Positions 1-26,401 of a stretch of DNA of 39,278 nt are shown here, in pieces. Each line of letters begins with the position of its first letter. Within the stretch, counting starts at the first letter, position 1. The notes beneath the pieces are model-generated. The model worked only from the letters and a program-made list of their open reading frames with translations. It did not search any database and had not been told where the DNA came from. This DNA comes from a virus. The translations under genes were made by a program, and so were the position numbers. The stretch is taken from the IMG/VR virus record IMGVR_UViG_3300020472_003932, positions 1-39,278 of that record; one strand, written 5' to 3'.

Positions 1-489
1 CTATGCAAGTGCGAAATGAGCGCGGATAATTTCGAGGCAGGCTTCCCGATCGTCATCTGACAAGCCGAGAAATGGTCGTTTAGGAATAACCCCCCACGGT
101 GTGCGTTTGCCGTACTGTCCCTTCTTCGCGCCGTAGTGGAATGTGCCCGCGTAAATCATCGGTGAGCCAATTAGCAGTTCACCGTTTACCACCTGGTAGA
201 GAATCTGAGTGCTGAGCTGTTTAGTCTCACCGATGCCCGGCTTCTTCTTCTGGATCCGGCTGGCGCGTTTGGTTTTGAACCGGCTGGCGTAGTTCAGCAG
301 CGTGACCGGGCTGTTGTCTTCCCATTTTGACCCGTCCGGCGCTTCTGAGTCTCGGAACCGCTGCTTGGTTGAGTCGATCAGGTATTCACCGATCTCTTTC
401 AGTGCTGGATCCACATTGCCGATCGATGCCAGCAATGCGTCCAGTGCCGAGGTAACTTCCTGATCGTTTACTTCAACCGTGAGGCTCAC
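1..489 (-). CDS. Phage virion morphogenesis protein, Mu gpG-like
   Basis: 162 residues. The N-terminal pattern (short acidic start, then an EIGEYLIDSTKQRF segment and a GSKWEDNSP segment) and the C-terminal GVIPKRPFLGLS motif fit the Phage_tail_S / virion morphogenesis family that includes Mu gpG. In Mu, gpG acts at head completion and head-tail joining. It is the last gene of the leftward head operon and starts with GTG overlapping the portal-F stop by 4 nt (GTGA), so translation is probably coupled. The stop codon lies at the very edge of the window, so nothing can be said about what follows. Family assignment is from sequence recognition; the exact role is inferred from Mu. Confidence 0.85.
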   Translation of the reverse strand: MSLTVEVNDQEVTSALDALLASIGNVDPALKEIGEYLIDSTKQRFRDSEAPDGSKWEDNSPVTLLNYASRFKTKRASRIQKKKPGIGETKQLSTQILYQVVNGELLIGSPMIYAGTFHYGAKKGQYGKRTPWGVIPKRPFLGLSDDDREACLEIIRAHFALA

Positions 490-2732
490 AGGAAGCGCTC
501 CCCGAGTTCACGAACCAGCGCCAGTTTGAAAGCGGCGGCCAGCGTCTGCGCCAGATTGATCTGTTTCTTGCTGGCGATCTGCTGCAGCTCTTGGGTGACG
601 CTTGCACCAGGTGCGTAATCCCAGCCTTCATCGATATCGCCGTCGGCGTCCGGTACCGGATCTTCAAACCGGCCCCCCATGCGCTTGGCGGTGGCTTCAG
701 ATACCGCGATCACGTAACAGCTGCAGCCCCAGCCGTTCGGTGTGTAATGCGTCTGCCACCACGGGTGATCTGCAGGCAGAGTCAGCTTGTCCCACTTCAG
801 ATGTTCAAGGCGTGGCTCCGCGCTGCCGCCATGACGGTACATGCGCAGGGGCGCGACCTTCAGCAGCTCCGGATCGTTCAGCTGTGCCAGTCGCCCGGCG
901 TGGTACGTCGACTTCATATTGGTCGCGTAGATGGTACGTGTGCGCCAGTTCTTCTCGCCGGTATATGCCCAGCCGTGTTTCTCCACGATCTGATCAAAGT
1001 CACGGCGGAATTCATCGATCGAGCCGCCGGTTTCAATCGCAGTCATCACCGCACCGGCCAGATCGTTCAGCAGGTCAGCCTTCATGGCCCCGGCCACCAC
1101 GAACGAGCGATCGTGCCCGGCGCGCTGCATATCGCTCCAGCGTTCGGTCGGTACCAGATTGCGCAGACGGATCTGCAACGCTGCCAGCTGCTCATAGAAG
1201 GGATTGCCCGGCTCAGCGAACATCACCATGCCTTGTCCGGCTTCTTTCGCCACGTCCTCCACACCGCGCGCCTGCGCCACGGTGAATGCCACCTGCAGCG
1301 CTGACAGCATGCTGATGTCCGGCAGCTCGCTGTACGCGTTCAGCAGCCGGTTGTGCAGATCGGTCAGGCTGTCTGCCTGGTCGGACATGCGGCGCACGCG
1401 ATCGATCCACTCTTTCAGCGGCTCTTCACCGTCGCGTTGCAGTTGATCTGTCAGGTCGGTGATGCGCTTGCTGATGTCATCCCCAGGATCTGATTCAGCG
1501 AACTGCACATCCGGTACCGGCGCAGCAGGTTGTTGTGGATCCGGCTCTGCCGCGTCTTCGATATCGTCTTCTTCCAGATCGTACGAGCGCATGAAGTAGC
1601 TCTTGCTGAACGTCACACCAGTCCGGCTCAGAATCTCATCACGCTTGGCCTGCCGGTCGTCGATCTCTTCCTGTTCGTACATGGTGAACTTCGGCGCTGG
1701 CCCACTCATGCCATTCGCGTACATGATCCACTCGATCAACTGATCAACCGTGCTTTCAACCAGTGAGGCATCGCCGTCGCGCAGATCATCAGCCACTTCC
1801 AGACCCGCAGTGGCGCTGGCGTTGGTGCTGTTGCTCTCGGTGGTCTGGTTCTGGCCCAGCAGTGCGATGTTGATTTCCGAACGGCAGTACATCAGCAGGC
1901 GCTCATAGGCTTCTGCCGCGCCGGTCTTCGCGGCGGCCTCGATGATATCCACGCTGGAGTCATCTGGAATCACCGCGATCGCATCCTGAATCATCGCCTC
2001 CAGATCATCCGCCAGATCCATCTTCACATTGCGCTGGGTGTTGCGCGGCACTTTACCGACCAGCCACGGCGTGCCGTATTTCTCGGCAAACTGAACCCAG
2101 AAACGCAGCCCGCCTTTCATGAATGTGGCAGGCCAGAACACCATCGCCAGATCGGCAACGCCCCACGGATTCTGATAGGTAGCCTCGTTGCGCGGCAGCA
2201 GGAATTTCCGCTCCGACAGCTCCTCGCCTTCGATCATCGACTTACGGCTGCGGAAACGCAGATCGCCTTCGGTACCGAACACAAACCACTCGGGTGGCTT
2301 AGCAATCAGCTGCTCTGGCGCTGTCCAGCGCTGGCCTTTTGACCAGAGAATCTCAATCGGCTGATAACCGTACAGTGGCGCTTCGAGAATATCCTTGATC
2401 AGCTGCGTGATATCCATGTCATCCAGAATCGTCTGAATATTCGACTCCGTACGCGCTGTGGCCTTGCCGCGATCCAGTCCCCACTCGAGTGCGGTCACCG
2501 CTGATTTACGACGGCGGATCGCACCACCCACCGCAGGGTGGCCACGCAGGTCACGGTAAATCGCAACGCTCTTACCCTTGGCGCGCAGAATCGGATCCGG
2601 GTTCGGCAGGTAGTTACCCAACGCGGTGAAATCCGGGCTGCGATCGCGGGTCACGATGTGGTCAGTCATGCGATCGTTTTTTTCAGCGAACTGAACGAAC
2701 TGGTCGGGCGATACCCAGATGCCATTCTTCAT
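486..2732 (-). CDS. Fused portal (DUF935, Mu gp29-like) and MuF head morphogenesis protein
   Basis: 748 residues. Residues of roughly 30-420 resemble the DUF935 portal family (Mu gp29), with segments such as RDLRGHPAVGGAIRRRKSAV and LLGQNQTTESNS. Residues of about 500-720 resemble the Mu F minor head protein, including FRRDFDQIVEKHGWAYTG, the RTRTIYATNMKSTYHAGR segment and the GWGCSC motif near residue 670. In Mu these are two proteins; here one uninterrupted frame carries both, joined by a Pro/Glu/Asp-rich linker (about 400-440). The portal forms the DNA entry ring; MuF proteins sit inside the head near it. The ATG overlaps the terminase stop by one base (TAATG) and has a GAGG ribosome site. 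No frameshift or stop is seen at the junction. Confidence 0.85.
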   Translation of the reverse strand: MKNGIWVSPDQFVQFAEKNDRMTDHIVTRDRSPDFTALGNYLPNPDPILRAKGKSVAIYRDLRGHPAVGGAIRRRKSAVTALEWGLDRGKATARTESNIQTILDDMDITQLIKDILEAPLYGYQPIEILWSKGQRWTAPEQLIAKPPEWFVFGTEGDLRFRSRKSMIEGEELSERKFLLPRNEATYQNPWGVADLAMVFWPATFMKGGLRFWVQFAEKYGTPWLVGKVPRNTQRNVKMDLADDLEAMIQDAIAVIPDDSSVDIIEAAAKTGAAEAYERLLMYCRSEINIALLGQNQTTESNSTNASATAGLEVADDLRDGDASLVESTVDQLIEWIMYANGMSGPAPKFTMYEQEEIDDRQAKRDEILSRTGVTFSKSYFMRSYDLEEDDIEDAAEPDPQQPAAPVPDVQFAESDPGDDISKRITDLTDQLQRDGEEPLKEWIDRVRRMSDQADSLTDLHNRLLNAYSELPDISMLSALQVAFTVAQARGVEDVAKEAGQGMVMFAEPGNPFYEQLAALQIRLRNLVPTERWSDMQRAGHDRSFVVAGAMKADLLNDLAGAVMTAIETGGSIDEFRRDFDQIVEKHGWAYTGEKNWRTRTIYATNMKSTYHAGRLAQLNDPELLKVAPLRMYRHGGSAEPRLEHLKWDKLTLPADHPWWQTHYTPNGWGCSCYVIAVSEATAKRMGGRFEDPVPDADGDIDEGWDYAPGASVTQELQQIASKKQINLAQTLAAAFKLALVRELGERFL

Positions 2733-4348
2733 TATTGGTAACCCTCAAACATTGACGCCGACTGACGGCGATGACGACTGGAAACCTCGACCGGACCCTG
2801 GCGCATTTCAATGCTGGCAAACACCGCCAGCGCCAGCGCCGGGGAAAAATCGCCGTGGCGATAGGTGTCCGGGTCTTTCAGATCCTGTCGGCGCTGCTTA
2901 ACCACCATCGGAATGCCGTCGACTTCTTCCACCGCTCGCAGATCGTTGGCGAGATCCTGGTCTTTCGGTACCTGTATAGTCCCGTCTTCAAACTGCTGAA
3001 TCATTTTCGGCATCCAACTGCCGTACCAGGCTCTGTTGAGTTTCACCTGAGCGATCATGCCGCTGCCGTACTTATCAGCCGTGTATTCGGCCAGCGTTTC
3101 GCCGGAGCCGGTCGCGTCCATCGCACCACCACAGAAACGCGGTAGCCGGTCGAGGATGTACCAGATAATCTGCTCTTGCTGCCGGGTAGGCACCTTGTGC
3201 ATTTCCAGTACAAACGGGCAATAACGCTGCCGCCCTGGCTCAATCGCCAGCGGAGCAAAGATGGAATAATCGCGGTGGCGGGCAAAGTCATGACCGAAGA
3301 CGTGAAGGTGCTCGGGATTACACAACGCCAGCACAGGGTCGATGTACTTTTTAATCCAGTCATCGCACCACGACTCTCGCTCATCAACCGGCTTAGCGGC
3401 AAAATCATCAGTGAGTTTCAGTCGCACCACAGGCCGATGCGGCTCGCTCGGCATTGCGTTATCAATCCAGATGCCCGGCATACTGGTGCCGGTACCGTCG
3501 CGCGGTATTGCGTCCAGCTCTTCGCGCATTTGCGCCTTACGAGGCCCGTAACCGTTGCGGATCGTGGCGTACCATTTGGCTTTGCCTTCGATCGTCGCCT
3601 TCTCGCCCTTCATCATGCAGACGCGCTCATAGAGCCCATTGGCTACCGCATCGTCAAACGAGCATTTATATACTTCAGCGCTGTCGCCGTAGCGAAGGTC
3701 TCGGATGTCATTAATCAGAGCGTTAAACGGATTCGCGCGTCCGAAATGCGTACTGATAATAGAAACGCGCCCACCCCAGATCAGCAGTGCAGTCGCCGCA
3801 TCAATCACCGCCGCCACATTTCTGTGGAACGCCGCCTCATCAATTATGACCTTACCCTGCAAACCACGAATATTGGCTGGGTTACTGGATAGCGCGACAA
3901 TTTTAAAACCGGAGGCGTAGCGAATGCGGTAGCTGGTGATCTGCTTAGTTGTGCCATCTTCCTGTTGGTCTTCAAACAGAAATTCTTCGATCTCTGAAAT
4001 GCCGCCAGCCTGCGCCTGAGCGATCGTCTTGGAGAATTTCGCGCAGTAGCCAATAAACTCCAGACCTTTTTCTTTTGTGTCACCGATGTAATACACATCC
4101 ATGCCACCGGCTTCTTTTGTTGCACCTGCCGTCAGTGGTGCATCAAGCCCCTCGGCGAACGTAATACCAGTACGACGGCCTTTCTCACACACCTTAATTG
4201 GTGCAGTGATTCGTAACCACTCCACCTGGTGCTTCATCAATACGCCTTCAGCCGACGGGTCGAAACCTTCTGGAATTTCACGCGCTCGTGTGGGCAGTTC
4301 TTCCCATTCAACACAGCGTAGAGTGTCGCCCAGCGGCTTGATGGCCAT
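2732..4348 (-). CDS. Large terminase subunit (Mu gp28-like)
   Basis: 538 residues. This is the packaging motor ATPase and headful nuclease. Visible motifs: a degenerate Walker A region CEKGRRTGIT (54-63), Walker B VIIDEA (167-172) and coupling motif STH (199-201). The C-terminal half has nuclease-like acidic positions in HVFGHDFARHRDYS and GGAMDATGSGETLAEY. Length is normal for Mu-type large terminases. It lies 2 nt downstream of the DUF3486 small-terminase gene and overlaps the portal start, in the usual terminase-portal order, but on the minus strand. The ATG at 4348 is supported by close spacing to the preceding stop. Confidence 0.92.
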   Translation of the reverse strand: MAIKPLGDTLRCVEWEELPTRAREIPEGFDPSAEGVLMKHQVEWLRITAPIKVCEKGRRTGITFAEGLDAPLTAGATKEAGGMDVYYIGDTKEKGLEFIGYCAKFSKTIAQAQAGGISEIEEFLFEDQQEDGTTKQITSYRIRYASGFKIVALSSNPANIRGLQGKVIIDEAAFHRNVAAVIDAATALLIWGGRVSIISTHFGRANPFNALINDIRDLRYGDSAEVYKCSFDDAVANGLYERVCMMKGEKATIEGKAKWYATIRNGYGPRKAQMREELDAIPRDGTGTSMPGIWIDNAMPSEPHRPVVRLKLTDDFAAKPVDERESWCDDWIKKYIDPVLALCNPEHLHVFGHDFARHRDYSIFAPLAIEPGRQRYCPFVLEMHKVPTRQQEQIIWYILDRLPRFCGGAMDATGSGETLAEYTADKYGSGMIAQVKLNRAWYGSWMPKMIQQFEDGTIQVPKDQDLANDLRAVEEVDGIPMVVKQRRQDLKDPDTYRHGDFSPALALAVFASIEMRQGPVEVSSRHRRQSASMFEGYQ

Positions 4349-4350
4349 GA

Positions 4351-4929
4351 TTAAACACCCAGCACTTTATTGCGCCAGAATTTCACCTGGTCTTCGTCCA
4401 TACCCTGAGCACGTGCTGCGCTTTCAGCGTTTTCGGCGGCCTCTTCCAGCGCTTCTTTGCGTGCGGCTTCTTTGATTTTCGCTTCACGAGCGGTGGTTTC
4501 GCTGACAGCTTTTTCCAACTTTTCGTGGCTATACGACAAGTCTTTAATCATCTTCACCGCACCGGCGATCACTTCCGGGTCGTGTTCGCCCATGGTGATT
4601 TTCTGGATTGCCAGGGACAGGTCTATCAACGAATTCCGGATGATTTCAGACGTGAGGTTAGCGACTTTGCTTTGCGGGGCTGCGCCCAGCTTGCCGATCC
4701 AGATCTCCGCCATTTCGCGGGATTCGCGAATTGCCGCGCCAACCTGATCCATACTGAGCTTGTAGCGGTTGACTGCGCTTTTACTGACGGGCTCTTCACC
4801 GCGCTCTTCTAACAGCGCGTTGATTTTGGCCGTTGCATCCAGCTGGTTTATCCGTGGATCACGCAGCAGCTCATGCAGCTGCTCCAGAATGTCAGGGGCG
4901 AGTTGTTTTATCGATGATTGGCGTCCCAT
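4351..4929 (-). CDS. DUF3486 protein, probable small terminase (Mu gp27-like)
   Basis: 192 residues from the MGRQSSIKQLAP start. I prefer this ATG over an upstream one 30 nt earlier because it lies one base after the preceding stop and has a GGGAG ribosome site. The N-terminus has a helix-turn-helix-like region (LDATAKINALLEERGEEPVS then KSAVNRYK), followed by a long helical part with a Lys/Glu/Ala-rich tail, typical of DUF3486. In Mu-type phages this gene directly precedes the large terminase and is thought to recognise packaging DNA. Function is inferred from family and position. Confidence 0.88.
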   Translation of the reverse strand: MGRQSSIKQLAPDILEQLHELLRDPRINQLDATAKINALLEERGEEPVSKSAVNRYKLSMDQVGAAIRESREMAEIWIGKLGAAPQSKVANLTSEIIRNSLIDLSLAIQKITMGEHDPEVIAGAVKMIKDLSYSHEKLEKAVSETTAREAKIKEAARKEALEEAAENAESAARAQGMDEDQVKFWRNKVLGV

Positions 4930-4930
4930 A

Positions 4931-5230
4931 TCACGCTCCCGGCTGCGGTCGCGCCACACCAGTAACCGTGGTCAGACCACGGGCGACATCCAGCCCGCGT
5001 GCGGTGATTTTGGCGATTTTTCCCACGCCAGGCATCTCGCTCACGGTGATCAGCGCCACATCGCTCAGCCAGTCCATGCTGGCGCGCAGCGCATCGCGGC
5101 TGATCGCGTGCCCCATGTATTGCAGGCCCGACTGCAGCACACCCTCGTTGTGGCTGTACGCCGCATCCTGCTCCAGCATCTGCAGGATCAGCAGCCGCTG
5201 CTGCTGAGTAACGATTTCAGCAAAATTCAT
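4931..5230 (-). CDS. VpaChn25_0724-type phage protein (Mu gp26 position)
   Basis: 99 residues, beginning MNFAEIVTQQQRLLILQMLE. It has a winged-helix-like layout: QRLLILQMLEQD, then GLQYMGHAISRDALRASMDW, then a two-strand wing GLITVSE/ITARGLDVARG. This matches the short VpaChn25_0724 family found between DUF2730 and DUF3486 genes in Mu-like phages. It overlaps the DUF2730 stop by 4 nt (ATGA) and ends one base before the small-terminase start. Biochemical function is not known; the fold suggests DNA binding. Confidence 0.8.
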   Translation of the reverse strand: MNFAEIVTQQQRLLILQMLEQDAAYSHNEGVLQSGLQYMGHAISRDALRASMDWLSDVALITVSEMPGVGKIAKITARGLDVARGLTTVTGVARPQPGA

Positions 5231-5616
5231 TGGCCTTTCCCCGCGTTATTGAGAGTGAGGAGATACTGATAGATAGTCGCGGTCTGGTTTGCCATCGCAC
5301 TGGTTGAACCCACGACTTCAGACAATTGCCGCGACACACCGCCCAGGCGCGTGTGTATATCCTTAAGATCATCGTGTTTCGGCAGCCCTTTAACTTCACC
5401 CTCGACCGTGAGGATGCGTTTTTCGTGTTCGCCGAGCTGGCGTTTCACATCTTTATCCAGCGCCGTGATGGCATCCGTGATATCGCTGGTGAGCTGTTTA
5501 AAATCATCCGGGCTGACGGTCGACCGTCGGAACGACCAGGCAATCCAGATCGCCAGACCGTTAAAAATCAGAATAATCAACGGCCACCAATCTTTTAATG
5601 CACTGGCAAAATCCAT
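5227..5616 (-). CDS. DUF2730 membrane-anchored protein (Mu gp25 position)
   Basis: 129 residues. One N-terminal transmembrane helix (about 10-30, WWPLIILIFNGLAIWIAW) is followed by a heptad-rich coiled-coil region (about 38-115). This architecture and the position first in the terminase operon match DUF2730. GAGG lies upstream of the ATG. It is the first gene of the leftward head operon, so its 5' side (5617-5754) holds the divergent promoter shared with the lysis operon. Role unknown. Confidence 0.82.
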   Translation of the reverse strand: MDFASALKDWWPLIILIFNGLAIWIAWSFRRSTVSPDDFKQLTSDITDAITALDKDVKRQLGEHEKRILTVEGEVKGLPKHDDLKDIHTRLGGVSRQLSEVVGSTSAMANQTATIYQYLLTLNNAGKGQ

Positions 5617-8162: not shown

Positions 8163-8424
8163 ACCATTCACCGGCGCAGCCAACGTAGCCAGTGCCTTAG
8201 AAATCAAACCGACCACCAACAACCCGCACCCGGTCGATACCATCAATATCCAGAACACCGGATCGGGAGCTGCGACGGTGTACGTGAAACTCAACGGCGC
8301 GAGTGAATTTTCCGTGCTGGAAGGTGATGTGCCTGCTGGCACGCTGAAAATCATCGAAGGCCTGCGCGACCTGGTGGCGCTGAAAATCGTCGGTAGCGGC
8401 GCAGCGGGTGTGATCACCTCGTGA
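8152..8424 (+). CDS. Hypothetical small beta-rich protein
   Basis: 90 residues, with an AGGAG ribosome site before the ATG. Composition (Gly, Ala, Thr, Val) and alternation (TINIQNTGSGAATVYVKLNG, then TLKIIEGLRDLVALKIVGSG) suggest a small beta-sandwich, like capsid- or fibre-decoration proteins. It is the last gene of the lysis operon, 28 nt before a heavily structured RNA region. No family recognised; the decoration idea is an inference from composition. Confidence 0.6.
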   Translation: MASKPFTGAANVASALEIKPTTNNPHPVDTINIQNTGSGAATVYVKLNGASEFSVLEGDVPAGTLKIIEGLRDLVALKIVGSGAAGVITS

Positions 8425-8452
8425 GAATGAAAAGCCGCAACCGTATCAGGCT

Positions 8453-8580
8453 GGTGCCACCTCTCACCGGCCTATGACGCGGGGCGAGGTAGTGCACCTG
8501 GCAGATGTGTTTAATCTGCAAGCCGGGCCTAACATAGCCCATTAGGCCGGTAGCCCCGCCGGTGGCGACAGAGGGGCACC
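8453..8580 (+). ncRNA. Candidate multibranched structured RNA
   Basis: A non-coding stretch folds by hand into a closed multibranch. Outer stem: GGTGCC (8453-8458) with GGCACC (8575-8580); CCTCT (8460-8464) with AGAGG (8570-8574); ACCGG (8466-8470) with CCGGT (8559-8563). Inner stem: CGGGGC (8480-8485) with GCCCCG (8553-8558). Inside are three hairpins: AGGT/ACCT (8487-8499), GCAGAT/ATCTGC (8501-8519) and CCG-GCCTAA/TTAGGC-CGG (8523-8550). It could be a 3' UTR element of the lysis operon or a separate small RNA. The strand is not proven, because the fold is nearly symmetric. Confidence 0.55.
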
Positions 8581-8624
8581 TTCTTTCCGGCGGGCATTCT
8601 GCGCTGCTGTTTTCCTTCCTCAAT

Positions 8625-8660
8625 CCCGGCTTTGCGCCAACACTGCCGGGCCTTCCTTTA
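8625..8660 (+). terminator. Probable terminator of the lysis operon
   Basis: CCCGGC (8625-8630) pairs with GCCGGG (8645-8650) around a 14-nt loop, followed by CCTTCCTTTATT. The T-tract is interrupted, so efficiency is uncertain. Its position between the convergent lysis operon and the minus-strand cargo genes supports the call. Confidence 0.5.
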
Positions 8661-8688: not shown

Positions 8689-9204
8689 CTATTCGCCTTT
8701 TTCTTCATCACTCCAGAAATTCTGTTTGGCTTTGATCTCTCTAATGTCAGCGAGCAATTCTCTTTCAATATTAGTGATGTGGAAAAACTCAAGTCCGGTC
8801 AGTACGGTGAAAAGAACTCCGATCAATACCAGCATTATTACAACAGCAATCAGCCACGCCGCAGCTGGCTGACTACCTAAATACGCGAAATAGAGTGAGA
8901 TCACTGCCAAAGAGACACCAGAGATAAAGGCAATAAGCCATCGTACCCTTATCACCATCAACCGAATCGTTAGTTTTCGAGTCAGTCTTTCTGCCGATCT
9001 GAATGGGAGACCTTCAATTTTTTCCAGATCGCGTGCCTTTCCCGCCACCATAAACAACATGACTACTGGAGCACTAACTAGTGCCGCGATCCATCGCATC
9101 CCCTCGACTATGAAGGAAGCTTCAAACGCGGGCAGCAGTATTGCTATGCAATAGCATACTGCAAACAATACTCCGTAAAATATAATCCGCGTCAGAATAG
9201 CCAT
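8689..9204 (-). CDS. Four-helix membrane protein of an AT-rich cargo module
   Basis: 171 residues with four predicted membrane helices (about 5-25, 35-53, 86-108 and 114-140), a basic cytoplasmic loop between helices 2 and 3 (KARDLEKIEGL through RKLTIRLMVIRVRW) and a charged C-terminal tail (about 145-171). It lies 5 nt downstream of the 329-residue gene and has no clear ribosome site of its own, so translation is likely coupled. Base composition is markedly more AT-rich than the phage core. I recognise no family. Such membrane-plus-soluble pairs occur among phage-borne exclusion or defence genes, which is only a contextual idea. Confidence 0.7.
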   Translation of the reverse strand: MAILTRIIFYGVLFAVCYCIAILLPAFEASFIVEGMRWIAALVSAPVVMLFMVAGKARDLEKIEGLPFRSAERLTRKLTIRLMVIRVRWLIAFISGVSLAVISLYFAYLGSQPAAAWLIAVVIMLVLIGVLFTVLTGLEFFHITNIERELLADIREIKAKQNFWSDEEKGE

Positions 9205-9209
9205 AGCGC

Positions 9210-10199
9210 TTATTTTTCGTCACCTACAACAATCGTATTGTCTTTAATGAGTGTATCAAGCCACTCGTACATTCGCTCCCACATCTCTTCCTTTCTGAGC
9301 AAACCTTTGTCATTTTCTGGAACGCTGACAACCTTTCTTAATTTCAGCTCGTCTCGAGTCACTGTCCCTGATTTTGTGTGAATCGTGTAATCCACTTCAC
9401 TTTCGACATGTCTTAGTTGATTAGAAAAGCTATCCATAAACTCCGTCGGGTCATCCTGATAAGTCCTACTCCAGCTTAGCGTTACTGTCACCTCAAGAGA
9501 GCGCCTTTGGATAATGTCATTCGACACCATTTTTGTTGGAAGCTTAACTTCTGGAGGGAGAAGCATCTTCAGATAGTCCCAAGCATTACCGCTTGGAGTT
9601 AACGAAATTGACTTCGTTCCTTTGACTTCCGAAGTGGTTGTTTTAGATTGGCTGGGCGCTTCCGATGACTTTAAATCCACCGGTGCTACAAAGGTAACGC
9701 CTTTACTATTTTTAATTTGTTTTGCTTTATCAGCTGGAGGTTGATCATTCAAAGCAACAAAATCTTCGTCCTTAATCTCTCCTGCTTCACGAAGCAACCA
9801 GTTGATGTAGTCTTCAAACTGTAAGGATTTAAGAGACATCGACTGCGACAAAATCACTGAGTTCTTTCGTATGCCGAAGTACATGATGCTGTGTAAGAAC
9901 TCGCTAAGCTTATCTGCAGGGCTAACTGAATCAAGCGTGAATTCATCCGCTACGGCATCCATTTTAGCCGTCGGCTGTTTAGCACCTGCTGTGTAGTCAA
10001 ACATTTCACCTACCCGCAACCCTTTATAGGGGCCGTTATAGTTGATTAGGCGAAAGTGGCTTTCAGAGTCAGTGCCTTGACGCCTGGCCGACGCAGCCTT
10101 TTTCTTCTTCAGCGCGCTTTCTAATCGGGCCTGTAAGTTGCGAGTGTCCGTTTCATCATTAAAATTAGCTACTTTGTAAACCAAAGATTTACTTGCCAT
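9210..10199 (-). CDS. Unidentified 329-residue soluble protein of the cargo module
   Basis: No membrane segment or signal peptide. Residues 1-50 are very basic (LESALKKKKAASARRQG). The region 105-140 (ILSQSMSLKSLQFEDYINWL) looks like an alpha/beta unit. A Ser/Thr/Lys-rich linker (about 168-200) separates it from a C-terminal domain rich in beta strands (RRSLEVTVTLSWSRTY) and ending in a Trp/Glu-rich helix. ATG 10199 has AAGGA 8 nt upstream. It is the first gene of a two-gene minus-strand unit, AT-rich and unlike its neighbours. I do not recognise it; a nuclease or sensor role cannot be supported from visible motifs. Confidence 0.7.
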   Translation of the reverse strand: MASKSLVYKVANFNDETDTRNLQARLESALKKKKAASARRQGTDSESHFRLINYNGPYKGLRVGEMFDYTAGAKQPTAKMDAVADEFTLDSVSPADKLSEFLHSIMYFGIRKNSVILSQSMSLKSLQFEDYINWLLREAGEIKDEDFVALNDQPPADKAKQIKNSKGVTFVAPVDLKSSEAPSQSKTTTSEVKGTKSISLTPSGNAWDYLKMLLPPEVKLPTKMVSNDIIQRRSLEVTVTLSWSRTYQDDPTEFMDSFSNQLRHVESEVDYTIHTKSGTVTRDELKLRKVVSVPENDKGLLRKEEMWERMYEWLDTLIKDNTIVVGDEK

Positions 10200-12101: not shown

Positions 12102-12983
12102 ATGGCCCGTAACCCAAACCCTACCACTGTTATTGATGACGCTGAGACCATCAGCATTCGACCAGAGATTGCTGGCAAGGCGACAGAAGTCGTGCAAATT
12201 CAACTGGCGCAACAGGAATCCGCCGAGCAGCTGGCCCTGCAACTGCGCTACGACGGCCCGATGCATCCGGATGCGCTGGAGGCCGGTATTGCTGATGCCC
12301 GATCCCGTATCGCTGCTGAGCTGTTCGGTATGGGTGCCCGCCTGCTGTTACTGAAAGAGCAGTGCGAGCACGGTGAGTTTATGGATCGCATCGGGCGTCT
12401 TGGGCTTGATCACACATTGGTGAATCGCACGATGCAGGCGACTCTGAAGTTTTCAAATTCTGCGATATCGCAGAATTTGGAGAAGCTCAGCAAATCAAAA
12501 CTGTTCGAGCTGGTTGTGCTCGACGACGACGAAATCAAAGAGCTGGAATACGCCGGATCGGTGCGCGGTATCAGCATCGACGACATCGACCGTATGACGG
12601 TCTCTGACCTGCGCAAGCAACTGCGTGAGGCTAAGCAACTGGCCGAAGCCAAAGACAAGCTGCTCGCCAATAAAAACACTCAGATCGATGAGCTGAATAC
12701 CAAGCTAGATGGTAAGGCCGCGAAGCTCATTGCACCTGACGAGCATCTGCAGCGCAGTCTGACTGAGGTCACCTCGCTCACGCAGCAGATCACCACCACG
12801 CTGGGCACCGTCTACCGCAAGGCGTTGGTGGAGATTTCTGACCACCATGCGCTGCATGGGGGTGACTCTGACCGCCTGCTGATGGGTTGCATGGATCAGA
12901 TTGAGTCTGCCGTTACCGAGCTGCGCGAGGCGTTTACCCTGATCAATACCGATGGCTGGCAACAGGATATCGAGGAGGCCTGA
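12102..12983 (+). CDS. Hypothetical coiled-coil protein preceding the transposase (DUF3102-like)
   Basis: 293 residues. About 60-150 contains MGARLLLLKEQCEHGEFMDR and a MQATLKFSNS segment, as in DUF3102-like phage proteins. About 165-235 is a coiled coil (LRKQLREAKQLAEAKDKLLA). AAGGA lies before the ATG. It ends one base before the transposase start and appears in this position in other transposable phages I know of in general terms. It may help in DNA binding or target handling; the exact function is unknown. Confidence 0.65.
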   Translation: MARNPNPTTVIDDAETISIRPEIAGKATEVVQIQLAQQESAEQLALQLRYDGPMHPDALEAGIADARSRIAAELFGMGARLLLLKEQCEHGEFMDRIGRLGLDHTLVNRTMQATLKFSNSAISQNLEKLSKSKLFELVVLDDDEIKELEYAGSVRGISIDDIDRMTVSDLRKQLREAKQLAEAKDKLLANKNTQIDELNTKLDGKAAKLIAPDEHLQRSLTEVTSLTQQITTTLGTVYRKALVEISDHHALHGGDSDRLLMGCMDQIESAVTELREAFTLINTDGWQQDIEEA

Positions 12984-12984
12984 C

Positions 12985-14730
12985 ATGGCATTACCTGCAG
13001 AAATGCTGGTCGATGCCTGGCGGGCTGCGGAGGCCGCCGGGCACGGTAAAAAGCAGTCGATTTTACAGGCCGCCGCAGATCGCCTGAATGTCTCCATGGC
13101 AACCCTGTATCGTGAGCTGGAAGCCATTGGCCTGCAGCGCGGGCGCAAACAACGCGCTGATGCTGGTAAGTTGGCTCTCAGTCGTGATGAAGCAACGATC
13201 ATCAGTGGCCTGATGATGCAGAGTTATCGTGCCAACAATAAAAAGCTGGCAACGATCGCCGGGGCGCTGGAAATGTTGCGCGCTAACGGCATGGTCCGCG
13301 CTGAGCGCATCGACGAAAAAACCGGTGAGGCGGTTCCGCTGACGGTTAATGCCGTCAGTCGCGCCCTGCGCCATTACGGTCTGCATCCGGATCAGCTGCG
13401 CCGCCCGGCTCCGGCTATGCAGCAGCGCAGCGCACACCCGAACGATGTTTGGGAGATCGACGCCTCCATAAGCACATTATTTTATGTGCCAGAGGACGGC
13501 CTGCAGGACATGAGCCCGGCGGAGTTCTACAAAAACAAACCCGGAAACTTCGAGAAGATCAAGCGCCAGCGCTTAACGCGCTATGTGGTTACCGACCACA
13601 CCAGTGGCGCTATTTTCGCCTGGTATGTCTCGGGTGGTGAGAGTATTGCCAATCTGGCTGAAAGCCTGCTGGAGGCCATGCGCGAACGCCCCGGGGAGGC
13701 ACTTTACGGCGTGCCGTTCCATCTGTATTACGACCCCGGCTCTGCAGCCACCAGAACCTTCAAGCGGTTTTTGGCGGCGCTGGATATTCAGCCCGTTGTT
13801 CATGCCGTTGGTAATGCCCGCGCTACCGGGCAGGTTGAGAACGCTCACAATCTGGTGGAGACCCGTTTCGAGGTCGGTTTTAAGTACACCCAAGTGCCGA
13901 CCATTGACTGGATCAACGAGCAGGCGCAGCGCTTCTGCCGCTGGTTTAACGCAACCAAAACCCATACCCGTCACGGCCATACGCGGCTGAATGCCTGGAT
14001 GACCATCACTCAGGTGCAGCTGCGCCTGGTTGATATTGATCTGGCTGCAGAGCTGCTGACCCGTGAGCCGGAACAGAAGAAAGTCCGCGACGATCTGCGG
14101 GTGCAATTTCGCGGTGGTTTTTACGATGTATCCAATATCCCAGGGGTACGTATCGGTGAAAAGCTGGATGTAACGATCAACCCGTTACGTCCGGGTACTG
14201 CCTACGTCGTGCTGCATGAAGCCGGGCGTGAGGTGTTTCATCTGATTCCTCAAATTGAGGTGGACGAATACGGTTTTGAAGTGGATGCACCGCTGATCGG
14301 ACGGCAGTTCCGCCAGAAAGCAGACACCGAACTGGATACCAACCGCAAAGAAATTCAGCGCCTCATCTACGGCGCTGAAACCGACGAAGAAGCCGCTGCC
14401 GCTGCCAAGGCCAAGGCCTTGCCGTTCGGTGGCCGGATTGACCCATACAAACACCTGGACGACCTGCCGGCTGTCACCGTGCTGCCACGACGTGGTACCG
14501 AGCACCCTGTGAACGCCAACCGCGAATACGCAGACCGCATTCTGACTCACGCTGAAGCCGCGATGTCCATCAAACGCGACATCCGCAACTGGACGGCGCA
14601 GCACTACACCCAGATCACTCAACGCTATCCAGACGGCGTGCCGGAGTCGGCACTGGCTGAGCTGGTGGCCGAGTGGGCAACCACCACCACAACCAAAACC
14701 ACTAAAAAAACAGGAGGTGACGCATGCTGA
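12985..14730 (+). CDS. A: MuA-type transposase (DDE recombinase)
   Basis: 581 residues from ATG 12985, chosen because GAGGAGG lies just upstream and conserved sequence begins there. An N-terminal helix-turn-helix (about 25-50) precedes the catalytic core with D159 (DVWEIDAS), D250 (LYYDPGSA) and E285 (GQVENAHN). The D-to-E spacing of 35 matches the rve/DDE family. A beta-barrel domain (about 375-430, RGGFYDVSNIPGVRIG) and a C-terminal tail that would contact the B protein follow. It catalyses strand transfer in integration and replicative transposition. It overlaps gene B by 7 nt. Confidence 0.95.
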   Translation: MALPAEMLVDAWRAAEAAGHGKKQSILQAAADRLNVSMATLYRELEAIGLQRGRKQRADAGKLALSRDEATIISGLMMQSYRANNKKLATIAGALEMLRANGMVRAERIDEKTGEAVPLTVNAVSRALRHYGLHPDQLRRPAPAMQQRSAHPNDVWEIDASISTLFYVPEDGLQDMSPAEFYKNKPGNFEKIKRQRLTRYVVTDHTSGAIFAWYVSGGESIANLAESLLEAMRERPGEALYGVPFHLYYDPGSAATRTFKRFLAALDIQPVVHAVGNARATGQVENAHNLVETRFEVGFKYTQVPTIDWINEQAQRFCRWFNATKTHTRHGHTRLNAWMTITQVQLRLVDIDLAAELLTREPEQKKVRDDLRVQFRGGFYDVSNIPGVRIGEKLDVTINPLRPGTAYVVLHEAGREVFHLIPQIEVDEYGFEVDAPLIGRQFRQKADTELDTNRKEIQRLIYGAETDEEAAAAAKAKALPFGGRIDPYKHLDDLPAVTVLPRRGTEHPVNANREYADRILTHAEAAMSIKRDIRNWTAQHYTQITQRYPDGVPESALAELVAEWATTTTTKTTKKTGGDAC

Positions 14731-15872
14731 ATCTGCGCCACGCGATGGAAGACTACGGCGTCAACAACCGCACCCTGAGTGCGGCGCTGGATGTCGCCCC
14801 GTCAACCGTCAGCACGCTCGCAAACCACGGACGATTCCCGAAGCACCGGGATGAGACCACTGCGAAAGAAATCATTCGCGGCGTATTTAAAGAAAAAGGT
14901 GCCAGCGCGGCAACGCTGGCAGTCCTGTTTGATGAATCCACCACCGCAACAGCAGCTAATAAACCAAAGGACGAATACATGTTACTACGCAAGCAGCCAC
15001 TTTACCCAGCCACCCGCAAGCATTTTGGCCTGTTTCAGGATCCGTGGGGCGAAATCACCAACGCTGAACATATTTTCGATACGTCAGATATCAAGTACGT
15101 GCGCATCTCATTGCAGCAGACGCTGACCAGCGAGCGTTTTATTGCCGTGGTCGGTGAGTCTGGCGCTGGCAAAAGCACGCTGCGCCGTGAGCTGGCGGAT
15201 AAAGTCATCCGCGAAGACCTGCCGGTCATCATTATTGAGCCCTATGTACTGGGGCTCGAAGACAACGACAAAAAGGGCCGAACCCTGAAAAGTCAGGATC
15301 TTGCCGCTGCCATCATCCGCACCGTCGCGCCACTGGCGACACTCGCCAGCAGCGCAGAGGGCCGCTTTAACCAGCTGCACCAGGTGCTGCGTGATTCGCG
15401 CCGCGCCGGTCACCGCCATGTGCTGATGATTGAAGAGGCCCATGCGCTGCCAATCCCCACACTCAAGCACCTGAAAAGGTTTTACGAGCTGGAAGACGGT
15501 ATGAACAAGCTTCTCAGCATTGTGCTGATCGGTCAGCCGGAGCTGGCGGCAAAACTCACTGAGCGCAACCTGCAGGTGCGCGAAGTCGTGCAGCGGCTGG
15601 AGATGATCACGCTCGAACCGCTCGACAGCAACCTCGAAGAGTACGTCGCGCACCGTTTGAAACTCGCCGGAAAAAGCACCGCTGAGGTGTTTGAGCCCGG
15701 TGCCCTGGATGCACTGCGCGACAAGCTGACAGTACCCAGCCGACATAAAGATGCCCCGGCGGTCAGCCTGCTGTACCCGCTCGCGGTCGGCAACCAGATC
15801 ACCGCCGCCATGAACAAAACGGCCGAGATCGGTGCGCCGCGCATCACCAAAGACATCATCCGGATCGTCTGA
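14724..15872 (+). CDS. B: MuB-type AAA+ ATPase, transposition target selector
   Basis: 382 residues. An N-terminal helix-turn-helix (about 8-35, NRTLSAALDVAPSTVSTLAN) is followed by an AAA+ core with Walker A GESGAGKST (144-152, K150) and Walker B VLMIEEAH (233-240). MuB binds target DNA non-specifically, stimulates the transposase and confers target immunity. Strong AGGAGGT ribosome site; start overlaps transposase end. Slightly longer than Mu B (312 residues), with an extended N-terminal part. Confidence 0.93.
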   Translation: MLNLRHAMEDYGVNNRTLSAALDVAPSTVSTLANHGRFPKHRDETTAKEIIRGVFKEKGASAATLAVLFDESTTATAANKPKDEYMLLRKQPLYPATRKHFGLFQDPWGEITNAEHIFDTSDIKYVRISLQQTLTSERFIAVVGESGAGKSTLRRELADKVIREDLPVIIIEPYVLGLEDNDKKGRTLKSQDLAAAIIRTVAPLATLASSAEGRFNQLHQVLRDSRRAGHRHVLMIEEAHALPIPTLKHLKRFYELEDGMNKLLSIVLIGQPELAAKLTERNLQVREVVQRLEMITLEPLDSNLEEYVAHRLKLAGKSTAEVFEPGALDALRDKLTVPSRHKDAPAVSLLYPLAVGNQITAAMNKTAEIGAPRITKDIIRIV

Positions 15873-21824: not shown

Positions 21825-22856
21825 ATGCCAGCACCAGTTATTCATCTCTTCAAGCCCGGCACTCATATCGATATGGGTGGCCAGCAGATTTCGTTCAGCG
21901 AATCGGATATGCAGGCGTCTGTCGATGCGTACGATCCGGCGCTGCATGAAGCCCCTCTGTGCATCGGCCACCCGAAAGATGACGCACCGGCTTATGGCTG
22001 GGTGCAGTCCATGCACATGGCCGCTGACGGCCCCGAGGCGATCCCGCATCAGGTGAACGCCGACTTTGCCGAGATGCATAAAAGCGGCGCGTTCAAAAAA
22101 GTCTCCGCCTCCTTCTATACCCCGAACAATCCGCACAACCCGGTGCCGGGTGTGTATTACCTGCGCCACGTTGCATTCCTCGGTGCTCAGCCACCGGCCA
22201 TTAAAGGTCTTCGTCAGGCGCAGTTGGTTGAGTACGCAGAAGGCGACGACTTCATCACCATCGAGTTTTCTGAATCCCCTGAAGAGGCACCAGCCGCTGA
22301 CGAGCAGCCGGTGCCGCCATTAGCTGCAACACCCGAACCCGAACCCCAACAACAGGAGGACGCCGCCGTGTCGTCACCGTTATCGCCCGAAGAGGCAGCC
22401 GAGCTGGATGCCAAAAACAAACAGCTGGAGCAACAGCTGAAAGAAGAACGTGCGCTGCGCCTGAAAGAAAAAGCCGACCGCGACCATGCGGATAACGTGG
22501 CGTTCTGCGAAGCGCTGGCCAAAGACACCCGCATCGGCAAAGACGACGTGGATGTTATGGCCGCTGCACTGGACGCCCTGCAATCGCAGGACACCCTGAA
22601 CTTCGGTGAAGGCAAAGACGCCCAGCCGCTGCACCAGGTGTTTAAAGATCGCCTGACGGCCATGCCGCCGCGTGTGGAATTCGGTGAAAGCGCCAAAGGC
22701 GAAGACGCCGCCGACGGTGAAGACGACGGCGAGACCGTGGTTTACGCCGAAGGCACGCCTAAAGAGCTGCAGGAGCTGGATCAGAAGATCCGCGCTCACA
22801 TGCAGAAAAACAACGTTTCATACGCTGCAGCGGCTCACGCTGTGGCCAGCAAATAA
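21825..22856 (+). CDS. Phage protease with C-terminal scaffold (Mu gpI-like)
   Basis: 343 residues. The N-terminal 150 residues fit the Mu-type head maturation protease: LCIGHPKDDAPAYGWVQSMH and VSASFYTPNNPHNPVPGVYY segments with conserved His, Ser and Gly positions. A Pro/Glu-rich linker (about 152-180) joins it to a coiled-coil, acidic scaffold domain (about 195-343). An internal start at 22368 should make the scaffold alone, as in Mu I/Z. It begins the late head operon. Confidence 0.88.
   Translation: MPAPVIHLFKPGTHIDMGGQQISFSESDMQASVDAYDPALHEAPLCIGHPKDDAPAYGWVQSMHMAADGPEAIPHQVNADFAEMHKSGAFKKVSASFYTPNNPHNPVPGVYYLRHVAFLGAQPPAIKGLRQAQLVEYAEGDDFITIEFSESPEEAPAADEQPVPPLAATPEPEPQQQEDAAVSSPLSPEEAAELDAKNKQLEQQLKEERALRLKEKADRDHADNVAFCEALAKDTRIGKDDVDVMAAALDALQSQDTLNFGEGKDAQPLHQVFKDRLTAMPPRVEFGESAKGEDAADGEDDGETVVYAEGTPKELQELDQKIRAHMQKNNVSYAAAAHAVASK
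22368..22856 (+). CDS. Nested scaffold protein (Mu gpZ-like internal start)
   Basis: 162 residues, in frame with the protease and sharing its stop. A perfect AGGAGGA (22354-22360) sits 7 nt before GTG 22368 inside the coding sequence, exactly at the linker preceding the coiled-coil domain. Mu makes its scaffold Z from an internal start in I. The ribosome site in this position is hard to explain by codon needs alone. Translation from it is inferred. Confidence 0.65.
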   Translation: MSSPLSPEEAAELDAKNKQLEQQLKEERALRLKEKADRDHADNVAFCEALAKDTRIGKDDVDVMAAALDALQSQDTLNFGEGKDAQPLHQVFKDRLTAMPPRVEFGESAKGEDAADGEDDGETVVYAEGTPKELQELDQKIRAHMQKNNVSYAAAAHAVASK

Positions 22857-22867
22857 GGAGCTGACCC

Positions 22868-23803
22868 ATGCCACAACGTTTATCTAACCTGCGCGTCGTT
22901 GATCCGGTACTCACACAACTGGCTATTGGTTTCGGGGCCAATATCTTTGGCGCTGCCGAGGCGCTGTTCCCGCTGGTGGAAATCGATACCGAAGCCGGAA
23001 AGATTCCGAAGTTCGGCACCGAACACTTCAAAATCTACAACACGCTGCGTGCGCTCCGTGCCAGTTCGAACCGGATTCAGCCGTCGGATATCGATGGTTT
23101 TGACATCAACCTCGACGAGCACGATCTGGAGTACCCGATCGACTACCGTGAAAGCGCGGAAGCGGCCTTCCCGTTGCGCTCTCATGCCACCAATGTGGTC
23201 ACTCAAGGCATTCAGCTGCGCCGCGAGAAATACTGTGCGGATCTGGCCCAAAACGCGGCCAATTACGCGGCCAGCAACAAGATCACCCTGTCTGGCAACA
23301 GCCAGTTTACCGATGGCACGAACTCTGACCCCGAAAACGTGATTTCGGATGCTAAAGATGCGATCCGTGCCCAGATCGCGAAAGACCCGAACACCATGGT
23401 GATCGGTCACTCCACCTGGAAGGTGCTTAAGCGTCACCCGAAGATGCGCGAGCTGCTGTCGACCGCATCTAAACGCCTGGTTCGGATGGAAGACCTGCAG
23501 GATATTTTCGAGATCGAGAACATCGTGATTGGTTCCTCCGTGTTCTCTGCCGACGGTACCAACGCAGTTTCTGACGTTTGGGGTGACAACATCGTGCTGG
23601 CGTATGTCCCGCAGAAACAACAGGACATGGAGCGCTCTATGTACGATGCCGCGTACGGTTACACCATCCGCAAGAAAGGCTCGCTGATGATGGATTCGCG
23701 CACTGAAGACGGAAAAATCGAGCTGATCCGCCAGACCGACATTTACCGTCCGTATCTGGTTGGTGCAACCGCTGGCTACCTGATCAGCGACACTAACGCA
23801 TAA
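22868..23803 (+). CDS. Major capsid protein
   Basis: 311 residues. It lies directly after the protease-scaffold gene with a GGAG ribosome site. Segments KYCADLAQNAANYAASNKIT, then NTMVIGHSTWKVLKRHPKMR and VWGDNIVLAYVPQKQQDM are typical of an HK97-fold coat family that replaces gpT in many Mu-like siphophages. It does not look like classical Mu gpT. It forms the icosahedral shell and is probably processed or assembled with the nested scaffold. Confidence 0.88.
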   Translation: MPQRLSNLRVVDPVLTQLAIGFGANIFGAAEALFPLVEIDTEAGKIPKFGTEHFKIYNTLRALRASSNRIQPSDIDGFDINLDEHDLEYPIDYRESAEAAFPLRSHATNVVTQGIQLRREKYCADLAQNAANYAASNKITLSGNSQFTDGTNSDPENVISDAKDAIRAQIAKDPNTMVIGHSTWKVLKRHPKMRELLSTASKRLVRMEDLQDIFEIENIVIGSSVFSADGTNAVSDVWGDNIVLAYVPQKQQDMERSMYDAAYGYTIRKKGSLMMDSRTEDGKIELIRQTDIYRPYLVGATAGYLISDTNA

Positions 23804-23816
23804 GGGGTGAGCCGCG

Positions 23817-24110
23817 ATGACTGCACGTAAGAAAACCCCTTCAACCCCTGCGGCTGACGATCAGGCGCAGGCTACTACCACTCCGGAGGCACCGGCCCAG
23901 CCGGTGACCTCTGAGCCGGTTCAGCCACCGCCAACGCCTGATCCACCAACGACGGTGTCCACGCCTGGCTATAAAGCTGAAACCCCGATCCTTCATAGCG
24001 GCGAGAAGTATCTGCCAGGCGATGAAGTACTGGACCTGACCCCGGATGAAGCTGCGCGCCTGCTGGCGCAGGGCTTTATCTCTCTCATTATCGACGGAGA
24101 CGCATCATGA
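23817..24110 (+). CDS. Small head-associated protein with Pro/Thr-rich N-terminus
   Basis: 97 residues. The first 45 are a low-complexity Pro/Thr/Ala stretch. The C-terminal part (ILHSGEKYLPGDEVLDLTPD, then EAARLLAQGFISLI) resembles the small DUF7210-like domain of the gene at 25401. Overlaps the next gene by 4 nt. Possibly a head fibre or decoration protein; function not established. Confidence 0.65.
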   Translation: MTARKKTPSTPAADDQAQATTTPEAPAQPVTSEPVQPPPTPDPPTTVSTPGYKAETPILHSGEKYLPGDEVLDLTPDEAARLLAQGFISLIIDGDAS

Positions 24111-24439
24111 AAACACATCATCCAATCCTGATTACCAGCATCACTGCCGCCGCTGCGCTGGCTCAGCGCCGCTTTGTCGGTTTTGACGGCGATGTCTGTG
24201 CCGCTGAAGCCAAGGCGCTGGGTGTGACTGAATACGCCGCTGACTCTGGCGACCAGGCCAGCGTCAATGCCAGCGGTGTGATTCTGGTGGAAGCCGGTGG
24301 TGCGATCGCTGTCGGTGCGCAGGTTGAATCCGACGCTAACGGCAAGGCCGTGACCATCGCCTCGGGTGCCAGCAACGGCTACGCACTGGACGCGGCTGCC
24401 GCTGACGGCGACGTGATCCGTATCGCGCGCGGTATCTGA
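24107..24439 (+). CDS. DUF2190-like head decoration protein
   Basis: 110 residues, Gly/Ala/Val-rich and beta-strand rich: ASVNASGVILVEAGGAIAVG followed by AQVESDANGKAVTIASGASN. This matches DUF2190-type capsid cement proteins, which follow the major capsid gene in many siphophages. It would trimerise on the capsid surface. Start ATGA-coupled. Confidence 0.78.
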   Translation: MKTHHPILITSITAAAALAQRRFVGFDGDVCAAEAKALGVTEYAADSGDQASVNASGVILVEAGGAIAVGAQVESDANGKAVTIASGASNGYALDAAAADGDVIRIARGI

Positions 24440-24441
24440 TC

Positions 24442-24951
24442 ATGAGTGTTTACGCCTCGGTAGAAGAGCTGGCAGCGGTTGCCATTAACGGCTGGGAGGA
24501 GCTGGCGCAGTTTGCCAGCCGTAACCCCGACGTAACCGGCGTGCTGCTGGAGGCCCGCTACCGGGGCGAAAACACCGACGACGAACAGAGCGCCAAGGAC
24601 GATGCTGATACCGCACTGGATCAGCTAGAAAACCTGTTGAGCGCCGTCTCCCGTTACGCCGACACCTACCTGAACCAGCGCTACCGCGATCTGGTACCAC
24701 TGGCTCAGCAGTATTACGAAAACACCGGCCTGCCGTACGCGGTGGCGGTGATTGCTCTGGGCCGGATTTACGGCCTGAAGCAGGACGACGACATGCGCAA
24801 AACGATTAAAGCGCAGGAAGACTACCTGCGGGATCTGGCCTCGGGCAAAGCATCACTGGATTACACCCAGCCGACCACGCCGGATGAGCCGGGCCGCATG
24901 ACCGTCAGCTCGCGCCCCAGTGCCTTTGATATGACCGGGTACGACAGCTGA
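24442..24951 (+). CDS. DUF1320 protein (Mu gp36-like), head-tail connector
   Basis: 169 residues. LLSAVSRYADTYLNQRYRDL and the YYENTGLPYAVAVIALGRIY segment are hallmarks of DUF1320. In the Mu gene order gp36 follows the capsid and precedes gp37, as here. It likely forms part of the connector below the portal. Its stop overlaps the next start by one base. Confidence 0.88.
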   Translation: MSVYASVEELAAVAINGWEELAQFASRNPDVTGVLLEARYRGENTDDEQSAKDDADTALDQLENLLSAVSRYADTYLNQRYRDLVPLAQQYYENTGLPYAVAVIALGRIYGLKQDDDMRKTIKAQEDYLRDLASGKASLDYTQPTTPDEPGRMTVSSRPSAFDMTGYDS

Positions 24952-25382
24952 TGTGGACCGACATTGAAAAAAGCCTGGTCGACGTACTGAAAACCGCGCT
25001 GCCGGATGTGCGTGTGCTGACGGCCAACGATTTGAAAGACGTCGATGAGGCCAACCAGCCGACCCCGGCGGTGCATGTGATTTACAACGGCTACCGGGTG
25101 AGCGAGAGCCGACCGGATGGTCTGATTTCCCGCGTCAGCCAGAACTGGATGACGGTGATTGCAGTGAAGAACCTGCGTGACCGTAAGCGCGGCTCAGCGG
25201 CCCGGACGGACGCCGTCGCACTTGCTGAACAAATCACCGGGGCACTGATGGGTGAACAGTTACAGCCCGCCGCCGGGCCATTGATATTAGCCACCGCACC
25301 GGCCCCCGGTGCCAGCGACGGCTTTCTGTATGTGCCGATCGCCTGGACGGCAGACGTTGTTTTAAAGCGACCTACCAACTAA
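24951..25382 (+). CDS. DUF1834-like protein (Mu gp37-like), tail completion
   Basis: 143 residues. N-terminal helix (IEKSLVDVLKTALPDVRVLT) then strands AVHVIYNGYRVSES and NWMTVIAVKNLRDRKRGSAA, as in gp37/tail-terminator-like proteins. Located between DUF1320 and the tail-tube genes, the expected place for a neck or tail-terminator protein. Role inferred from family and context. Confidence 0.8.
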   Translation: MWTDIEKSLVDVLKTALPDVRVLTANDLKDVDEANQPTPAVHVIYNGYRVSESRPDGLISRVSQNWMTVIAVKNLRDRKRGSAARTDAVALAEQITGALMGEQLQPAAGPLILATAPAPGASDGFLYVPIAWTADVVLKRPTN

Positions 25383-25400
25383 CCAGCTGAGGAGCTGACG

Positions 25401-25589
25401 ATGAGCAAACCAACCACCAACTCAGTTGAGGTCACTCTGCTGAAGCAACACACCCACAAAGGCGTGGCATACGCCAAGGGCGACAAGATTTCCGTCCGCC
25501 CGGATCAGAAGATCTGGCTGGTAAAAGAAGGCGTGATCGCAGCGGATGCAGCGGCCACAGCCTCAACCCCTGAAAAGGAGGCTAAGTAA
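25401..25589 (+). CDS. Small DUF7210-type protein
   Basis: 62 residues with GAGGAG ribosome site. VTLLKQHTHKGVAYAKGDKI then QKIWLVKEGVIAADA matches a short family found before tail-tube genes, with an Ala/Lys/Glu tail. Stop overlaps the next ATG (TAATG). Structural role unknown. Confidence 0.7.
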   Translation: MSKPTTNSVEVTLLKQHTHKGVAYAKGDKISVRPDQKIWLVKEGVIAADAAATASTPEKEAK

Positions 25590-26365: not shown

Positions 26366-26401
26366 GCCGGACCACTATCTACCAATAAAATCCGGAGCAA
26401 T

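Follow-up and report, generated by a model that had tools for sequence, protein, structure and literature searches.

The Mu-like prophage and its accessory insert

The window, i.e., the whole 39,278-nt stretch of viral DNA analyzed here (IMG/VR record IMGVR_UViG_3300020472_003932), is a Mu-like prophage encoding a DDE transposase (12952-14730) and a transposition protein B (14724-15872). The same sequence constitutes contig C20 of a 3.49-Mb bacterial genome, with identical copies in two contigs of the viral collection. The RNA described in this work lies on the plus strand between the end of an amidase/lectin-like operon, whose last gene encodes a 90-aa protein (stop codon at 8424), and a convergent operon on the repressor side, which is represented by a 171-aa gene from 8689. 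The earlier note had regarded the 128 nt at 8453-8580 as non-coding, which agrees with our results; the sole open reading frame across them (8414-8623, minus strand, 69 aa) matches nothing in PHROG or Pfam.

Comparison with the closest related prophages, L026 and L031, delimits the segment that brings the RNA. Their proteins are 64-86% identical to those of the window, and in both of them TCCGGCGG and the terminator region come almost immediately after the same 90-aa gene. The intervening segment (8425-8585, approximately 155 nt) is missing, and neither prophage yields a match to the models R1 and R2 described below. A search by the neighboring 90-aa protein likewise retrieved relatives that have the gene but not the RNA. 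The RNA is therefore an accessory insertion rather than a conserved part of the operon. Downstream, a hairpin of CCCGGC...GCCGGG followed by CCTTCCTTTA (8627-8652) is the probable terminator of the plus-strand operon. By-eye comparison places CCCAGC...GCTGGG CCTTCCTTTAA at the same position in L031, i.e., a compensatory change. The window RNA is followed by a conserved terminator within 50 nt and then by convergent genes.

Other features of this prophage deserve mention. The minus-strand cassette at 8689-10199 specifies two proteins, a likely membrane protein of 171 aa and a PHROG 3482 protein of 329 aa, without Pfam or PADLOC matches. Situated between the lysis operon and the repressor side, it is kept in L026 and missing at the same place in L031, a pattern of presence that identifies it as an exchangeable accessory cassette. 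The head module is split, with the terminase subunits, portal, and minor head protein encoded on the minus strand at 1-5616, left of the lysis genes, and the head protease, major head protein, and tail genes, including that for the tape measure, on the plus strand at the far right (21825-38980). A self-inverse BLAST match revealed a perfect 26-bp palindrome (12454-12479) within the coding sequence 12102-12983.

The conserved pseudoknot and the drawn cloverleaf

In the earlier note, 8453-8580 was drawn as a cloverleaf-like multibranched RNA of five compatible helices, including a three-part closing stem and three hairpins, with more complementarity than chance would provide. Such complementarity indeed exists: the drawn cloverleaf is the minimum-energy fold, at -63.9 kcal/mol versus -51.0 +/- 4.1 for shuffled sequences (z -3.2), and none of 200 shuffles equaled it. 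The opposite strand folds nearly as well because the region is palindromic. As a description of the conserved fold the cloverleaf was nonetheless rejected, since the model R1 built on it matched only identical copies among 44 genomes of the family and the retrieved loci.

The relatives reveal another structure. Permissive BLAST of the region returned weak intergenic matches, limited to the 3' part of the RNA, in Leptolyngbya phage Lbo-JY16, Serratia phage MQ-4, and an Alteromonas mediterranea plasmid, from which a common core with two short crossing helices was read. Pattern scans of viral contigs then provided the larger set of members. The family consensus is TG-[P1]-A-[P1']-AA-[GCC]-variable-[NNNGG]-UA-[RNNNN]-G-[CCNNN]-[GGC]-GACARA-[NNNNY]. 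In the conserved fold, a 5' hairpin (P1) and an AA joint precede the coaxial helices P2 and P3, and the loop of P3 pairs with the 3' end of the RNA to form an H-type pseudoknot. Near-invariant unpaired letters are the AA, UA, G, and GACARA.

In the window, the conserved core occupies 80 nt (8498-8577), which is the short form of the RNA; it matches covariance model R2 with 77 bits and an E value of 6e-16, the window sequence being itself among those from which the model was built, and the 36-sequence alignment A5 also supports it. P1 pairs GCAGAT (8501-8506) with ATCTGC (8514-8519) around a 7-nt loop, GTGTTTA. Across relatives this loop varies from 7 to approximately 110 nt, most of them having a larger P1 domain than the window. 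The 5' strand of P2, GCC (8522-8524, within the invariant AAGCC), pairs with 8564-8566. A variable segment follows (8525-8545), of approximately 11-56 nt in relatives and conserved in neither sequence, length, nor pairing. P3 is built from GCCGG (8546-8550) and CCGGT (8559-8563), the latter continued directly by the 3' strand of P2, GGC (8564-8566), and both assigned from pairing and covariation. Inside the P3 loop, GCCCC (8553-8557) forms the pseudoknot with GGGGC (8573-8577), whose assignment has the same basis, and the single-stranded linker GACAGA (8567-8572; GACARA in the family) crosses P2/P3. In the window RNA, P1, P2, P3, and the pseudoknot all pair, with standard pairs at all 19 positions of the conserved structure, and across the family these helices pair with covariation.

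Covariation carries the case for this fold. In the final structure of 19 pairs, 99.5% of the cells are paired across 30 distinct sequences (77.7% after shuffling and 30-49% for slid controls), covariation reaches 0.63 versus 0.18, and double changes occur in 14 of the pairs. A trimmed alignment of 33 members gave 99.4% of 528 cells paired, compared with 74.4% after shuffling and 28-43% for slid controls, a covariation of 0.71 versus 0.19, and double changes in 13 of 16 pairs; the trimmed alignments (A4 and A6) leave out the variable segments. When 36 full sequences are aligned by MAFFT without regard to structure, pairing is still 98.6%, again with double changes in 13/16 pairs, and RNAalifold independently recovers P1 and the pseudoknot helix. 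Helix by helix, P1 is changed on both sides in five of its six pairs, and all six form in 41 of 53 members (1.6 expected from own-letter shuffles of the 3' strand). P3 and the pseudoknot each show double changes in four of five pairs.

Members were found by pattern search with GACARA among the fixed letters, and the invariance of fixed letters is therefore in part by construction; the RNA of Serratia phage MQ-4, found without fixing GACARA, has GCAAAA as its linker. Selection was controlled with a pattern that fixed GGTAR, GCC, and GGCGACARA and left free the three outer P3 pairs and four of the five pseudoknot pairs. Of its 68 distinct matches, 60 satisfy both helices (54 perfectly), and the remaining eight mostly satisfy neither. 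The inner pairs of P3 are also supported, since another pattern with P3 free returned members with different inner pairs, e.g., GCAAG/CTTGC and ACATG/CATGT. P2, the pairing of GCC in AAGCC with GGC in GGCGACARA, was predicted before testing. A scan for a changed middle G of GGC gave 10 matches, three of which (L214, L216, and L218) fit both other helices perfectly; in these, AAGGC is paired with GCCGACAGA, a compensatory C-G to G-C change that confirms P2. This shape recurs in otherwise unrelated viruses, whereas its neighbors hardly do. Therefore, we regard the structured RNA family itself as virtually certain from these comparisons.

Family covariation thus places a genuine structured non-coding RNA on the strand proposed earlier, with an architecture other than the cloverleaf. 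The covariance analysis suggested in the earlier note does uncover strong covariation among unrelated phages, but for the pseudoknotted fold and not for the helices drawn. Four of the five are unconserved, and several exclude conserved pairs. The GCAGAT/ATCTGC hairpin survives as P1, the sole drawn helix to recur in relatives, whereas GCCTAA/TTAGGC falls mostly within the variable segment, which differs in length and sequence among members; its final two bases belong to P3. Of the three-part closing stem, one side (within 8453-8485) lies outside the conserved RNA, and the other (8553-8580) is committed to the pseudoknot in all relatives. Homologs with the same genes and no conserved pairing had been named as the test of the structure. 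This test needs care with an accessory insertion such as this RNA: L026 and L031, the closest homologous prophages, lack the segment entirely, and the covariation comes from unrelated phages.

For the window segment, energy minimization selects a fold other than the pseudoknot, and the 80-nt core by itself has a folding energy no better than that of shuffles (z -1.0); thus, the conserved structure is revealed only by comparing relatives. The shuffle-level energy of the core and the general tendency of compact, GC-rich phage intergenic regions to fold well would be in keeping with chance complementarity devoid of function, which we can practically dismiss, as covariation and recurrence in unrelated phages refute it for the family. 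The cloverleaf might still operate in the window lineage, its 5' flank capturing the 3' half of the RNA and switching the pseudoknot off. This flank (8453-8496) is complementary to the 3' half and is paired with it in the minimum-energy fold only. The cloverleaf beats all shuffles, and its -63.9 kcal/mol compares with -49.9 to -55.6 kcal/mol for folds with the conserved helices, before pseudoknot energy. Such a switch is nevertheless improbable: the flank has no counterpart in other relatives carrying the RNA, and the cloverleaf exists in one lineage, represented by two identical marine contigs, which affords no evolutionary test. As a separate observation, the flank, which is unique to this lineage, looks like an inverted and imperfect duplicate of the 3' domain of the RNA and could sequester the pseudoknot.

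Occurrence and genomic neighborhoods

The RNA was identified in approximately 65 phage or prophage contigs, the genomes of three named phages, and one plasmid of Alteromonas. DNA-level searches with the whole 240-nt region gave chance matches only in 94 genomes, as well as weak matches to phages and plasmids, some of them genuine. The only true match in 369 genomes of the class is that in the window's own genome, and BLAST against E. coli genomes and plasmids found nothing further. One relaxed pattern matched 19 genome contigs, of which L063, from an Oceanospirillaceae genome, is real; the other 18 were rejected by eye, as they show no pseudoknot and lie mostly in coding sequence. Whole records carry the RNA sparingly, with exactly one strong match in 27 of 28 and a chance pattern match in the last. 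The plasmid copy (L037:4893-5035) is the one copy on a 200-kb MOBH plasmid of A. mediterranea 615. Hence, phages are not the only carriers of the family. Hosts known by name are Serratia, Alteromonas, and the cyanobacterium Leptolyngbya, so any target would have to be widely conserved. Overall, the RNA is a rare accessory of phages and plasmids from a wide range of hosts.

Its neighbors differ entirely among loci. Flanking genes encode an RdgC-like exonuclease, a DNA methyltransferase, SSB (assigned by its sequence), the terminase small subunit, a head protease, a sigma-like factor, a replication initiator, an HNH endonuclease, a baseplate hub, and unknown proteins. When the predicted proteins of 23 carriers were compared, no family was common to more than eight. 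A phage-encoded partner is therefore unlikely, which implies that the RNA would act by itself or meet a conserved host component. Being present in a single copy per phage, with no fixed neighbor gene and no common protein partner, the RNA is an independently moving unit.

At six loci (L035, L075, L136, L214, L216, and L218), the RNA lies inside or beside tRNA arrays, ending 8-34 nt ahead of a tRNA in the last four. Terminators flank it on both sides in L083 and L112, the downstream one immediately, and one terminator lies just downstream in L048, L116, and L117; these loci therefore mark the RNA as a discrete unit. In L111, L113, L120, and L138, a terminator lies just upstream. In many prophages, the RNA resides within an operon, 9-13 nt past one stop codon and 25-40 nt ahead of the next start. 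Promoters just upstream are suggestive in a subset, without overall enrichment over shuffles.

Candidate functions and known RNAs

The previous reading as neither a tRNA nor a recognizable structured family was borne out: ARAGORN and Rfam detected no tRNA or tmRNA in the window, and the conserved fold is not a cloverleaf. The Rfam/Infernal search proposed at that stage (Rfam 15) found nothing at gathering score that covers the RNA, either in the window or at 23 loci where relatives occur, and permissive searches returned chance-level matches only, none of them convincing. A by-eye resemblance to the 16S rRNA segment GGUAAYGGC..ACCAAGGCGACGAU was dropped, as R2 has no credible match elsewhere in the host genome (best E value, 8.4). 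Keyword searches of open-access full texts found no description of the RNA. We regard the RNA family as new, although its mechanism may still prove to be of a known kind.

Two phage RNAs invite comparison. The stable RNAs C and D of T4 (species 1 and 2) are non-tRNA molecules of similar size and unknown function located within the phage tRNA array, and the RNA described here also occurs in tRNA arrays of large phages. Homology was rejected, since the T4 RNAs have no GGCGACA, do not match R2, and misfit a relaxed version of the architecture. The family accounts for part of the non-coding "dark" space of such arrays. VIPR guide RNAs (vrRNAs) are also intergenic phage RNAs of approximately 100 nt and consist of 9-16 tandem YNNGG repeats that work with the Vipr protein (PMC13142463). 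By eye, the member sequences contain no such repeat tract, and the 23 carriers share no protein family, which excluded this candidate.

Structured RNAs that covary to this degree and keep their unpaired letters invariant usually have a specific task, such as catalysis, the binding of a ligand or protein, or imitation of a cellular RNA. We consider it reasonably probable, from comparative sequence analysis, that the family represents either a new class of trans-acting pseudoknotted RNAs, passed among unrelated phages and plasmids as one-gene accessories to subvert a conserved component, or a new class of self-cleaving ribozymes. To the narrower proposal, a new accessory stable RNA of mobile elements that probably acts in trans on a conserved host component, we assign about an even chance. 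The RNA would be made as a discrete stable molecule, either from its own short unit or by cutting from a polycistronic or tRNA-array transcript. Its pseudoknot would then present the invariant letters to a conserved host component of translation, transcription, or RNA decay or to a defense protein, and the RNA would thereby help the mobile element in trans. Candidate components shared from cyanobacteria to gammaproteobacteria are, e.g., the ribosome, an RNase, RNA polymerase, or a defense factor. The position of many copies between a stop codon and the next start argues against this proposal in that it would suit a cis-acting element too.

A new class of small self-cleaving ribozymes, in which the pseudoknot would build the active site around UA, G, and GACARA and trim phage or tRNA-array transcripts, is unlikely but has arguments in its favor. 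Its approximately 60 essential nt, compact pseudoknot, and invariant unpaired letters, together with gene-agnostic single copies in phages, some of them close to tRNA genes, recall HDV-like theta (PMC10879173), hammerhead, pistol, and similar ribozymes of phages, and a ribozyme would need no protein partner and work in any host. Theta ribozymes are likewise small pseudoknotted RNAs at single phage sites, sometimes beside tRNA genes, but cleave at the tRNA 3' end (PMC10879173), unlike the present RNA, which is 5' of the tRNA in L136, L214, L216, and L218. HDV-like ribozymes are nested double pseudoknots in which P1 begins at the cleavage site and J4/2 supplies the catalytic C, with P2 and P3/L3 as further elements. 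The family alignment offers crossing helices resembling P1/P2 and a single G where P3/L3 should stand between them, and the HDV-like fold fails because P3/L3 is missing; the 5'-terminal P1 of theta is also absent, and Rfam reports no HDV match. Further evidence against a ribozyme is that neither free end, 5' or 3', has a conserved short stem that would point to a cleavage site and that the only ribozyme named by Rfam is an insignificant hairpin-ribozyme match (E value, 7.6).

Action in cis, as a processive antiterminator, an RNA-stability block, or a processing site of polycistronic mRNAs, is rather unlikely. The antiterminating precedent is put of phage HK022, which consists of two hairpins, has no pseudoknot, and is found at the beginning of each of the two early operons. 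Like put, the RNA is a phage element indifferent to the identity of nearby genes that requires no phage protein, and in many prophages it lies between co-oriented genes, past a stop codon and ahead of a ribosome-binding site, whatever those genes are. Unlike put, which stands at operon starts ahead of the terminators it suppresses, the RNA occurs once per phage rather than at both early operons and often just ahead of a terminator. It precedes co-oriented genes at many loci, but a terminator or convergent genes follow it elsewhere, as in the window, where both do, and in L048, L083, L112, L116, and L117, where the terminator is just downstream. The upstream terminators of L111, L113, L120, and L138 and the copies in tRNA arrays also count against a cis element.

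A metabolite-binding riboswitch or attenuator is very unlikely. Small riboswitches such as preQ1, SAM-II, and guanidine-III are commonly H-type pseudoknots with conserved loops, in which a hairpin loop pairs downstream and the first loop is short. The present RNA shares this topology, and a terminator or ribosome-binding site is sometimes found downstream. In contrast to these riboswitches, it has no Rfam match and no consistent downstream gene. The downstream positions are occupied by methyltransferase, SSB, terminase small subunit, or exonuclease genes, tRNAs, convergent genes, or none, with no transporter or biosynthetic gene among those seen; regulation by a metabolite is unlikely precisely because these genes share nothing. 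For the preferred trans-acting RNA, as for a catalytic one, the invariant letters define exact mutants with which host takeover, anti-defense, or catalysis could be addressed.

Finally, a group of related prophages (L082, L084, L085, L088, L091, L097, L104, L111, L120, and similar ones) has the RNA in the same early operon, beside RdgC-like or PHROG 1965 genes. Its P1 loop contains a strongly conserved domain (GTGTTAGC...), and this conservation suggests that the long form of the RNA may have an extra function.
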